Shown here one piece after another: positions 28,369 through 33,662 of a stretch of 64,000 nucleotides of DNA. The notes under the pieces were generated by a model, which saw only the letters and a list, made by a program, of their open reading frames with translations, was not told where the DNA came from and did not search any database. Origin of the DNA: Gautieria morchelliformis (Eukaryota; Basidiomycota; Agaricomycetes; Gomphales; Gomphaceae); NCBI GenBank assembly GCA_015179125.1, contig WHVA01000116.1:124001-188000 (forward strand), written 5' to 3'. The stretch's first letter is position 1, and each line of letters begins with the position of its first letter. The position numbers and the translations under genes were made by a program.

Positions 28369-30171
28369 TCATTGTAGTGTCATGTAGCTCCCTGAGAGTT
28401 GACCTGTCAGCATCACCATGAGTATGAATGAGTGACAGGTACACACATAAATTCACACGTCCGTCCCCACCACCCGTAGCCAGCATACCCCTGGTTGGGC
28501 TCAAGTCGACAGAACAAACTACACATGCATGCATGCATGCACAAATTGAACAATAAGAAGTGAGTTGTGTGCACAGATGCATACAAATGCACTGGGACGT
28601 ACCAGCACCCATGTGTCCATGCAGTTTGAGCTGTTGTTCCCCAGTGCGCAGGTCCCAGAACCGCACACTCTGGTCACGTGAACCTGATACAACCCACTGG
28701 TTGTCAGGTGACACAGCAACAGAGTGCACAAGATGCTAGATCCACACTAATAAGCATCACAGTTCATGAAGAGTGAAGATTTTCAAGGTGATAGCAAGCA
28801 AAGGAAGCAAAGGAAATGCAGGCATCTACTCACCGTATGGCCTGTAAACTCAACTGTACACATAGACACACCTTCATTCTGGCCGCTCTTCTCTGTGGCT
28901 GAGCCAGCATCCTCTATACCCACTTCATATGACTGCCTCAACACCCCTCTCTGTGTGCTGCTTAACAATGACTCCAGATCCCAATACTTAAGGCTCATAT
29001 CCAAGCTCCCGCTGACAACTCCCTTTCCATTAGGTGTGAATGCCACACTAATCACACTGTCCGTGTGACCCATGAAGCACTTGACAAGTTGCCCCATTTG
29101 GACATCCCAAAGGCTAACGATAGCATCGGAGTGGCCTGCAGCAACCAGGGCTTTGTCAGGAGAGATGGAGACAGAGTGTACGCCAGTGCGGAGCTACATG
29201 TTGCCAGCCAAAACCAACACAAAACACACCATACCCAGGTGTACACACCCACATAAGCACAACAAGATGTATCAGCATGCCTCACATGAAGATACATGAT
29301 GATAGGACACACGTTCGCTGGTGCTGTGATTGACAGTGTCCTGTGCTGACCGGTCTCCATATCCCAGATGCGCACAGTGTTGTCCCAGGATCCAGAAACA
29401 AGTAGGTGGCCATCATGTGAGAAGTTGAGGGAGCTAATGCCACCATTATGACCATCAAAGATGGAGAGGATGCGCTTGGTCGCAATGTCCCATATCTGAG
29501 GGTGATGTGCAGTGATGGGATATGCAGGTTGCAAGGGATAAATGCCCAGGTGAAAGAACATGCATAGTCAGTGGATGAGAGCGCATTGTAGGAATAAGAT
29601 GGAATCAAGGGGCAGTGTAAATGAAGGATGTCAGCACATGACATGCAGAAACACACACCCCAATCTTGTTATGCTTGGCACCTGTCGCGAGGTAGCGTCT
29701 GTCAGGGCTAAAGTGCACGCAGTTGATGTTGAGGGGGTTGAGAACAGTGTCATCGACAAGCACACTGTTGGGAGTGTAGTCAATGTGTGGGGGAGATGAA
29801 AGGGGGAGCAGAGGAAACAAAGCAAAAGGTGAGGTGATCACTCACCATGTCCTTTCCCCAGTGACTGTGTCATATATCTGCACTGGGTCTCGTTGGGATG
29901 CAGTTGCGAGGTAGCGCCCATCGGCTGAGAAGTGGACGAAGAATACAGGGCTGGAAGGTGCAGGGTTAGTGTGGAAGTGAGATGAATCAGGTCCAAGTTT
30001 GTTACAGCCAAACCAAACCTATGGCCCTAAAACAACTCAGCCACGGTGACTCACCACATCCAATCATCATGCTTTAGAGTATGCACCAAATCCACATCTA
30101 CTTGGCGTTGCAGGACATGCTTGCTGAAAGTGGCTACCCATTGTGATCCCTGTCATCACAGAGGGGAATGA

Positions 30172-30202
<31 letters not shown>

Positions 30203-33200
30203 GAAAGATGTCTGGTGCGGCCAGCAACTCACCAACTTCAACTCTGGCAATGCTGTATGCAGGGTTACATTAGGGACCACTGCAGCCATCTCCAGCAGCA
30301 ATGAGGAAATCACATCATGACCACCCACCACTGCTGCCTGCAGTGCACCACCATACACTCCTCCTTGAGCGTTCACATCTGCACCACTCTCTATGAGTAA
30401 CCGGGTAACCATATCATTGCCTTTTGATGCTGCTGCCTGCAGTGCACTGCCATACTCTCCACCATGAGCATTCACATCTGCGCCCTTCTCTAGGAGCAAC
30501 TGGACAGTCATATCATAACCCCCTGATGCTGCTGCCTGCAGTGCACTCCCATACTCGCCTCCTTGAGCGTTCACATCTGCACCACTCTCTATGAGTAACT
30601 GGATAACTATATCATTGCCTTCTGATGCTGCTGCCTGCAGCGCACTCCCATACTCTCCACCGTGAGCATTCACATCTGCGCCCTTCTCTAGGAGCAACCA
30701 GACAGTCATATCATAACCCCTTGATGCTGCCGCCTGCAGTGCACTCCCACACACTCCTCCATGAGCATTCACATCTGCGCCCTTCTCTAGGAGCAGCTGG
30801 ACAGTTGTATCATGACCCAATACTGCTGCTGCCTCCAGTGCATTCCCATAGAGCCCTCCCTGAGCATTCACATCTGCACCATTCTCTATGAGCAACTGGA
30901 CAGTCATAGCATGACCCCATAGTGCTGCCGCCTGCAGTGCACTACCATACGCTCCTCCATGAGCATTCACATCAGCACCCTTATCTAGGAGCAACCTGAC
31001 AATTGCATCATGACCTTGTGATGCTGCCACCTCCAGTGGAATGCGACAGTTTGGTCCAGGTGCATTCACATCTGATCCTTTTTGCACCAGACATTGGCAT
31101 GCTCGTTCCAGCCCAGTCTTGGCCGCAATGTAAAGAGGATATGTCCCAGATTCTGCCCATGGATGACTGTTATGGTAAAGCCACATCCAGTTAATGTAAA
31201 CCATACTAGTGGGTTCCAAGAGCGTCATGATCAGCTCATGTAGATCATCAGAGTTGCCAGTGGGATCCCACCCAGCATGCTTCATCCAGTTATTTGTGGC
31301 ATAGTGAGATAGTGGATAGAACCTGGTTGTATTCCAGTTTACACCATTATCCTGGTCAAATTGCAGTAGGTATGCCAGACATGTCTTCGCAATGAATACA
31401 TGTGCAAGCTTTTCGTTAAAATAATAGCATGAAAGCATGGCTGTGCTCCTGCGAAGATGTTCTGAGATCAGATATTCTCGCACGGAAAAGTGTGCCAGTC
31501 TGATCTCTCCTGCTTCAGTGGAGAGAATGCTGTTGTCATTGTGGTCACTGTTACTGCTGTCCTCCCAGAATGTGATGGTAACAAGGCTGGAACATATGGC
31601 AAGGATGTCTTGTGGATCCTGAAACCGCCGGCTCTGGTCAAACAGTGGTTCATCTATTGCATCAGGATCTGTAGCAATCACTTCCACAGCTTGATCCAGA
31701 GATAATGTGTTGAAAGAGAAAGCCAACCATTGGAGCAGGCTCAGAGCATTCTGCTTGTCGTCCTCATCAATAGCAGCGAGAATTCGATCATATGTCTCAT
31801 TGAGTGTCTTTGGGAGATGGGTGAGTGCTTTCTTGAGTGCTGCAGGAGTTTTGCATTTCCGTAGCGCATCCAGTTGACAGACAACCCACCGAAACCTTGC
31901 TGTTCTGTCAGAAAACATTCACATGCAGGGAAATGACAACTCACATCCCTTGTGCACCCTGCATCAAGGTAGTCATCACCATCTCCTTCTCACCTGCTGA
32001 GTACCTCCTGAACTTGACATCACCTTCAAGTGTGCTAGACACATGAACTCGGATGTCACCATCAAGAAGATTCTCATACAGTGGTACCTCATGTGAAATC
32101 AAACCACTCAGCCTGTCTTCAATGTCTCGCTCTTTGCGACTTGTCGCTAGCAAGTGTAATGTGTCGATCTTCCAGTCGTGGATGTCTTTGATAGCCCCAA
32201 GAAACCTGGATCGTTCAGGGCACTCGTCAAGTGCATCAAAAACAATATAGACGGCCTTGAAACCCCCAATGATTGACTTTAAGGTAGACATCAGTTCCTC
32301 TTGAGGCACCGATCGGCGAGTACCAGCATTCCTAGAGAACAGCGTCTCCAGGGCATGAGGGATGGTCGTGGATTGTACAGTTAACTGCCCGATCAGAGAT
32401 CGAAAGACGACATCCGGCAAAGAGTCCTTGTCGTTAAAGTCAAAATAGAAAAAGGCCATCGCGGTGGAGGGGTCGGAACTGCAGTAACGTGAAAGTTCTT
32501 CGATGATCGTTGAGCTTGACGCCGTCATACGTTAGCATGATAGGAAAAATAACGACGAATGTGATTGCGCATACCATAGGATGCTTTTTCCCGCACCAGC
32601 TGTCTCAATCCATCAGCAACAAGCAAGGAAATATTCAGCAGCATACTGGACTCACGTATACCGTGGAGCCAAAGGAAGGAATGGGGAGCTTCTCGCCATT
32701 CCTGGAACCGTTGTTCTTCCACAAACCACAAACCAGTTGTCTCCTGGTGCACGCTACGGGCATTTCTATGTTTTATTTCGTGATCAGGAGCCGCCAACCA
32801 GTCATAGATCTTTTGACGATGCTCTTCTACACAACGAACCCATCAGGATCAGCATCCCACAGTAGGAGGCATGGCGACATGCGACTTACGCAATTTGGCC
32901 TGTTCCATAGCCTGGCTTATCTCAGCAGTCCGTTCCTGCAAGGATTGCACACCGCTTTTTATGTCCTCTGTTGACTGGCTTAGCTTGGCACCCAACACTT
33001 CAATCCCACTATCTATCTTGAGGGTCAAGCGTCTGTCGGCATGGTCAGCCTCGGTTCAAAAGCAGGAAATGCAACATACGTCTGATCTACCTCCATTGCC
33101 GTAATCAGCGAGTCTTTGAGTCTCCTAATACTGTCCACAGTCTTGTTAATTTCGGCCTCCTTCAGCGGCCATGTCAATGCTTGGATGCCACCTTTCCGTG

Positions 33201-33662
33201 CGAGGTCTTTTGCCAGACCCTCCATCTCGTGACTCAGCGCCGTCTCAACGTTGCCATCCGGCCTCGCTTCCAGATCCCCCATCTCGAAGCTATCCATCTC
33301 GCCACCCAGCGCCGTCCGGAGACGCTTCATCTCGTCACCGCAAACATGGAGTCGCTCATCCAAAGCCGACAAACGAGAGGCCGCTCCTGACTCCAATTGG
33401 GAGGTCCGTGCAGTCTCTGCATCTACTAGTTGCAAAACCTGTATCAACACTGTACGCAGTGCCACCAACTCTGTCGCGATCCTATCCTGATCTCTGGGTG
33501 CGTTCTTCACGCCAGCGACGTATTTTGAACACACGCCGATATTCGATCCAGTGAGTTGAAGGACGGCAACGACGTTCGCTGATTGGTTTCGTTAGCATGC
33601 TACCAAGACATTGAGATTGTCGGCGACTTGCCTACTATCCCCAGGTTTGCTAGTGCGGCCAT
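28369..33662 (-). CDS. Intact NACHT NLR-like receptor N2: HeLo-like, NACHT, 9 ankyrin repeats, Tup1-type seven-blade propeller
   Basis: The 15-exon model stays in phase throughout (4,179 nt, 1,392 residues). Exons: 33632-33662, 33080-33578, 32890-33032, 32656-32826, 32575-32599, 31945-32514, 30233-31895, 30055-30149, 29846-29950, 29659-29764, 29313-29495, 28834-29193, 28603-28735, 28447-28518 and 28369-28391. Residues 1 to about 225 are a HeLo-like STAND N-terminus ([19 protein letters not shown]). NACHT has P-loop PGAGKS near 282-288 and Walker [10 protein letters not shown] near 380. Nine ankyrin repeats lie at about 730-1025. Residues about 1035-1392 resemble the Tup1 leader and propeller: [67 protein letters not shown] and the last WSY. 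The first intron is GC-AG. The likely role is non-self recognition; a link to transcriptional repression is inference. Confidence 0.88.
30174..30202. repeat. (GT)n microsatellite in an N2 intron
   Basis: About 14 GT/TG dinucleotides, in the intron joining the ankyrin exon to the propeller exons. Confidence 0.9.

Follow-up and report, generated by a model that had tools for sequence, protein, structure and literature searches.

The closest described counterparts of the genes treated here are fungal NOD-like receptors (NLRs) and the Tup1 family of corepressors. Fungal NACHT-ankyrin NLRs form a large family in which a NACHT domain with P-loop and Walker B motifs is combined with highly similar ankyrin repeats (PMC4986451). 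The allorecognition proteins HET-D and HET-E of Podospora anserina are of NACHT-WD40 type and carry near-identical repeats that are swapped between genes, with codons 7, 9, 25 (and 27) under positive selection; Tup1 is named in the same paper in connection with propeller interactions (PMC1805685). Sordariales NLRs with a C-terminal protein kinase have been described as putative integrated decoys (PMC12258605). For the Tup1-type propeller, three top-face hotspots per blade (R1-2, R1 and D-1) were defined by Wu et al., and binding measurements assigned the binding of Fep1 by Tup11 to Tyr382, Arg384 (given as Arg284 in the abstract), Tyr426, Tyr508, Leu559, Lys575 and Ile601 (PMC3419727). The stretch analysed here, referred to as the window, comprises 64,000 nucleotides of contig WHVA01000116.1 of Gautieria morchelliformis and contains three copies, designated A, B and C, of a gene in which an NLR-like NACHT-ankyrin part is joined to a complete Tup1 propeller. 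From sequence comparison these genes probably encode ligand-sensing receptors of the fungal NLR (NACHT STAND) type, in which the face of the propeller has been diversified and its scaffold kept under constraint. No report of a NACHT-Tup1 fusion was found among the titles and opening parts of abstracts listed by searches of open-licence literature on fungal NLRs, decoys and Tup1 expansions.

Copy B is an intact gene of 15 exons on the reverse strand (28369..33662) whose spliced open frame encodes 1,392 amino acids, arranged as helical N-terminus, NACHT domain, ankyrin repeats and complete Tup1 propeller. The ATG lies at 33662 and the stop codon at 28369, exactly the gene end given in the original prediction; 13 introns are GT-AG and the first is GC-AG. 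Exons 1-2 (33080..33662) encode a helical region, a putative signalling or effector domain. The NACHT domain is encoded by exons 4-6 (31945..32826) and was recognized by the Pfam model NPHP3_N at 136 bits (136-141; cut-off 24.8), with the P-loop GIPGAGKS at residue 280 and the Walker B motif FDALDEC at residue 382; the NACHT model PF05729 gave 23.0 bits, below its cut-off of 26.7. Exon 7 (30233..31895) encodes a further helical part and eight to nine highly similar ankyrin repeats (Ank_2, 139 bits), and ends in a Tup1-derived PELKL. After an intron of 83 bases (30150..30232, GTGAGT..CAG), exons 8-15 (28369..30149) encode the Tup1 leader, seven blades and the terminal WSYMTLQ. With its NACHT/STAND nucleoside triphosphatase, P-loop, Walker B motif and C-terminal superstructure-forming repeats, copy B is a fungal NLR by domain content. 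It resembles the NACHT-ankyrin NLRs described in PMC4986451 in these motifs, in the similarity of its ankyrin repeats and in belonging to a large family, but has, after the ankyrin repeats, a further C-terminal domain that is not repetitive and whose cellular source is known.

Copies A (17498..22738) and C (46266..51409), also on the reverse strand, have the same architecture, with propellers open at 17498-19305 and 46266-48006, respectively; the high-end coordinate of each is an ATG read from the sequence. The splice sites of both propellers correspond to those of B. The leader, seven blades in Tup1 order, the TLSI strand and the CTVEF/CTVEY-x-GHT strand that had been claimed for three paralogues were all found in A, B and C, and so was the terminal WSY, the spliced models ending in WSYTMFQ (A), WSYMTLQ (B) and WSYTMLQ (C) as compared with WSYTTLQ in Ramaria Tup1. 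The motifs quoted in the original prediction are real; as a set, they are a blend of copies and not the sequence of one gene. A 14-residue motif came from copy C, and IRIWDI and an 11-residue motif came from copy A; copy B has its own versions of the quoted motifs, of 20 and 11 residues.

The Tup1 identity of the propeller was assessed with a profile built from 27 Tup1-type proteins. Profile scoring, the tree, entropy and the ratios of nonsynonymous to synonymous substitution rates (dN/dS) covered the 23 open propellers among 31 loci of the genome, the eight with stops being left out. All 23 scored 351-428 bits over nearly the full propeller part, and the genome's own two Tup1 proteins scored 626 and 653 bits. 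Nineteen WD40-repeat rivals, namely eight long WD40 frames of this genome (presence of NACHT assumed) and 11 fungal proteins labelled by Pfam as NACHT-type, reached 105-181 bits over parts of the profile. Solved Tup1 (1erj) was the ninth match of copy C in the PDB (E 3.8e-52), ranking below repetitive WD40 proteins for which more matching stretches were summed.

In a tree of 55 rows, which used eight of the 19 WD40 rivals and, like the entropy analysis, omitted five of 29 Tup1 rows (Amanita 2 and 3, Paxillus, Phellopilus and Lactarius), the 23 open fused copies grouped together (93/100), and a 100/100 split set them with Tup1, apart from the NACHT-WD40 proteins. The expected grouping with Tup1 was thus recovered in the tree, but the approximately unbiased (AU) test allowed a grouping with NACHT-WD40 to stand (p 0.489). 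Because the eight WD40 rows lie on a long branch and the tree is unrooted, neither the branch nor the test was used as support, and the Tup1 identity was based instead on the profile, the joint, the introns and the terminal exon. The group uniting the fused copies with Gautieria and Ramaria Tup1 had a support of 24/99, so that the place of the fused clade within Tup1 is loose. An ordinary NACHT-WD40 origin of the propeller was rejected on profile scores and gene structure, the AU test giving no help.

The fused copies share with Tup1, Tup11 and Rco-1 the leader, the blade order, the long sixth-blade strand, the terminal WSY and intron positions that are also found in the two Tup1 genes of this genome; those two genes seem to hold one extra blade-3 intron, which the transferred gene model reads as an insert in frame. 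They differ from these corepressors in having no detected Tup_N, in a partner face that is not conserved and in the attached NACHT-ankyrin part. In the whole genome, Tup_N (PF08581) matched on contigs C419, C1048 and C393 alone, the last below the cut-off, and not on the contig of the window, in keeping with the absence of the Ssn6-binding N-terminal region of Tup1 that had been noted originally. The match on C419 belongs to a Tup1 gene (L050, G000:C419:39868-49867); in its tandem neighbour, which may be related to the fusion donor, leader and propeller are present and Tup_N was not detected. That on C1048 (L053, G000:C1048:119188-128888) resembles Tup_N, lacks a Tup1 propeller match over the 8 kb that follow and looks like a truncated Tup1 N-terminus.

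The joint between the two parts was placed by comparison with basidiomycete Tup1 proteins, in which the propeller is preceded by DP..(V/A)P(P/S)ELKKE-GSDWFAVF or a close variant. Fused loci have exon tails like NPHTVLPELKL, and the exon that follows starts with GSGWAATF or similar. The PELKL tail is Tup1 sequence, and the joint therefore lies within the ankyrin exon, upstream of the intron; the ELKL noted originally at the end of this exon is itself Tup1-derived. A joint at this position indicates that a piece of a Tup1 gene was captured together with its introns. Both Tup1 genes of the genome (at L050) have an intron with the donor GTGCGT at the joint place, where the joint intron of copy B also lies. 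This donor is common to 11 of the 20 fused loci at which a PELK ending with splice donor was found by script; the remaining 11 of 31 loci failed the frame or motif rule of the script.

The alternative of two adjacent genes, or of an annotation artefact, with no fusion at all, could point to the unspliced ankyrin frame, which crosses the 83-base intron and stops shortly after it. It is nevertheless very unlikely, since the joint lies within an exon, the parts of copy B are just 83 bases apart and a methionine from which a separate propeller could start is late or missing. The first methionine of the leader part is residue 242 in A, 31 in B and 99 in C, the B leader exon having no earlier start codon; in 17 of 23 open propellers the first 27 residues contain no methionine. 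The same arrangement also recurs at 29 of 31 loci. Together, the profile scores, the joint within the exon, the shared intron and the missing Tup_N support the original proposal that a corepressor propeller was captured by an NLR, as far as sequence can indicate.

The family is larger than the three paralogues first proposed. A genome search with the propeller gave at least 31 Tup1-type propeller loci with a main exon of at least 50% identity; A, B and C are included in this number and the Tup1 contig is excluded, and since only the best candidates were scored, the true number may be higher. At 29 of 31 loci the propeller is preceded on its own strand by ankyrin repeats (28 before extra sequence was added for L030). 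At the other two, L024 and L027, the added sequence contained no ankyrin and a PELK- or PKLK-type tail is still present. A related NACHT exon lies upstream at 27 of 31 loci, at a distance of 8-10 kb in two of them; conversely, a Tup1 propeller lies downstream of 25 of the best 47 of 151 NACHT matches. The propeller is open to blade 7 in 23 of 31 loci, and the terminal WSY was found by script in 19. Near-identical loci (L011-L013; L014 and L019) indicate that the count of about 30 is raised by haplotypes or recent duplications. Recombination between fused copies is suggestive only: 91 of 1000 permutations were as low for all 23 copies, and one of 1000 for a subset of 14 copies picked after the tree had been seen.

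Some fused loci (L011, L012, L013, L014 and L019) are convergent to a generic WD40-repeat gene on several contigs, which represents either duplicated blocks or uncollapsed haplotypes. One NACHT relative without a called propeller (L060, G000:C689:26200-29200) is 83% identical to copy B; it has what appear to be remnants of the leader and, after them, retroelement-like sequence that includes a stretch we take to be chromodomain-like.

The partner-binding face was compared at 21 hotspot positions (PMC3419727), whose places in Gautieria Tup1 were assigned from motifs. In 24 Tup1 proteins, spanning Basidiomycota, Ascomycota and early-branching moulds and containing one Pisolithus kinase fusion, the mean entropy was 0.18 bits at hotspots versus 0.92 elsewhere, and the residue was retained in 96%. 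In the 23 fused copies it was 2.48 bits at hotspots versus 0.99 elsewhere, a difference that none of 20,000 permutations reached. The fused copies match the genome's own Tup1 at 10% of hotspots as against 59% of the remaining propeller positions; at 10 of 21 hotspots the Tup1 residue occurs in no fused copy. Counterparts of the Fep1-binding residues were kept in 0/22 (Tyr382), 4/23 (Arg384), 0/23 (Tyr426), 0/23 (Tyr508), 2/23 (Leu559), 0/23 (Lys575) and 1/22 (Ile601). Bottom-face turns had an entropy of 0.83 in fused copies versus 1.11 in Tup1; with the top face hypervariable and the bottom face constrained, polarity is inverted relative to Tup1. Distinct face signatures were found in 22 of 23 fused copies. 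Variation was lower at positions that flank the paired hotspots or lie between them (means 0.90-1.22; D+1 1.48), and aromatic residues were enriched at hotspots (tryptophan 6.3% versus 2.3%).

Retention of the Tup1 partner-binding surface, raised in the original prediction, is thus contradicted by the sequence comparison, and the three functions proposed there fare differently: a sensor is favoured, and a decoy and a recruiter are disfavoured, both being unlikely because they need the Tup1 partner face, which has been lost. As an integrated decoy the propeller would mimic Tup1, and effectors aimed at Tup1 would trip the receptor. The module is indeed genuine Tup1 with full blade order, and fungal NLRs have been discussed as potential carriers of integrated decoys (PMC12258605); a plant NLR integrated domain has also been discussed with adaptive evolution, so that change since capture is possible (PMC8294853). 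An extra host-homologous domain is present as in such decoys, but the surface that an effector would target, taking this to be the Tup1 partner face, is not: hotspot retention is one in ten, nearly half of the positions have lost the Tup1 residue in every copy, and each Fep1-binding counterpart survives in four copies at most. A decoy is accordingly improbable. As a recruiter, the propeller would repress transcription by delivering chromatin factors or Tup1 partners to genes, for which homology to a corepressor domain speaks; the loss of the partner face and the lack of any Tup_N match in the window, hence of any sign of an Ssn6-binding region, make this highly improbable.

The focus of variation on the top face is that of diversifying NLRs of the HET-D/HET-E type. 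Both systems have an NLR propeller that varies at corresponding top-face positions, and R1-2, R1 and D-1 would be equivalent, by analogy, to HET-D/HET-E codons 7, 9 and 25 (PMC1805685); the fourth codon, 27, is mildly raised in fused copies (1.48 versus 1.01 in Tup1). Unlike the near-identical HET-D/HET-E repeats, which are under concerted evolution, the fused propellers consist of seven distinct Tup1 blades, and their variation lies between gene copies.

Selection was examined in ten disjoint pairs, which used 20 of the 23 open copies. The ratio of the proportions of nonsynonymous and synonymous differences (pN/pS) was 0.50 (0.44-0.56) outside hotspots, from which the propeller body is held by purifying selection; dN/dS outside hotspots was 0.38-0.64 in all ten pairs. 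At hotspots pN/pS was 0.99 (95% 0.71-1.44), which fits lost constraint and falls short of the positive selection reported for HET-D/HET-E. At 1.99, the ratio of hotspot to elsewhere was matched in 31 of 5000 permutations. Pairwise hotspot dN/dS ranged from 0.36 to 2.94 and exceeded 1 in six of nine pairs, the tenth (L027/L029) having no hotspot differences. The hotspot face evolves either freely or under mixed forces.

These values bear on the main live rival, a passenger domain, in which the face would drift after the loss of its partners, folding residues would stay and the ankyrin repeats alone would sense. Pooled hotspot pN/pS near and not above 1 agrees with such drift, as do the eight broken propellers among 31. 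Drift does not readily account for variation centred on the top face with bottom-face turns less variable than in Tup1 itself, for the enrichment of aromatic residues at hotspots, or for the low dN/dS outside hotspots in every pair. The passenger is therefore considered unlikely, although less so than a decoy.

Several results weigh against the receptor interpretation. Besides the hotspot pN/pS and the eight propellers interrupted by stops, two of the three window copies have frameshifts as assembled, read by eye (A in exon 2, C in the ankyrin exon), so that B alone is open throughout. The hotspots are a sequence rule and not a structure of the fused proteins. Nor did any Pfam model identify the N-terminal domain at its cut-off: in copy B no HeLo-like or other known N-terminal effector domain matched at E<=1, and exon 2 alone gave an all-helix AlphaFold model of poor quality (mean predicted local distance difference test score 58). 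The HeLo-like N-terminus of the original prediction thus finds no match in copy B, and PF17111, which we take to be the former HeLo-like model, occurred below threshold (E 4e-4 to 1e-2) in all four relatives scanned.

With these points included, the receptor interpretation is still judged the probable one. A single in-frame gene fusion would have added a complete Tup1 propeller, introns included, to the C-terminal sensor of an NLR, and later duplication of the fused gene would have led to about 30 copies. As part of the receptor, the propeller would have given up its Tup1 function, and its partner face would have been exchanged and have diverged separately in each copy. Non-self or altered-self ligands may be bound by the ankyrin solenoid and the variable face of the propeller; binding would free the NACHT domain, which would oligomerise, and the helical N-terminal region would then signal, with cell death or incompatibility as the probable outcome. 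Ligand binding, oligomerisation and N-terminal signalling are taken from the general NLR activation scheme in PMC12258605. The Sordariales kinase NLRs discussed there also carry an extra domain on a complete NLR; here that domain is a Tup1 propeller, present in about 30 copies in one genome and with a diversified face.

Capture of the same module was also seen in predicted kinase-Tup1 proteins of Marasmius (P0175), Tulasnella (P0245, P0249) and Pisolithus (P0014), in which the module is entered at nearly the same point (PPELKKEGSDW) and which are apparently separate captures. They differ from the fused family in their kinase partner and in a Tup1 face that is mostly kept: 17/19, 17/21, 15/17, 16/21 and 21/21 comparable positions in five propellers, P0175 having two. 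If the gene models are right, capture alone does not erase the Tup1 face. A propeller search with copy B for fused proteins elsewhere was swamped by long WD40 proteins among the 120 of 3478 matches listed. A search with the leader only gave, for 18 of 21 candidates at E<=10, no NACHT or ankyrin in the 110 starting residues or in the 100 before the leader. This absence is weak evidence, since the 31 copies of the genome itself were also unseen in protein searches, and proteins of about 625-779 residues fell outside the scope.

The NLR cluster of the window is adjoined by a retroelement at 13326-16666 (forward strand), with an RVT_1 reverse transcriptase and a frame read as gag-like. Between copies B and C lies an element of the non-long-terminal-repeat type (39478-42776, forward strand) with an Exo_endo_phos_2 endonuclease; a stretch similar to its second frame abuts the PKLK joint of L027. 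Beside the cluster are also a Utp14 gene (54584-55441, reverse strand, 256 bits) and a 1,3-beta-glucan synthase gene (59553-61364, forward strand, PF02364, 886 bits).

For an NLR sensor domain, the donor is known in this family and the parent gene is present in the same genome, and the conversion of a domain into a receptor can be read residue by residue. The family also offers a clear test of decoy versus direct recognition for integrated domains outside plants, with the predicted kinase-Tup1 proteins, in which that face is kept, as a natural contrast to the loss of the Tup1 face seen here. On balance it seems that a nearly invariant housekeeping interaction domain became an evolvable receptor scaffold, its fold and bottom face being retained and its partner face turned into a recognition surface particular to each copy, and that one fusion may have given rise to some 30 receptors built on a corepressor propeller.

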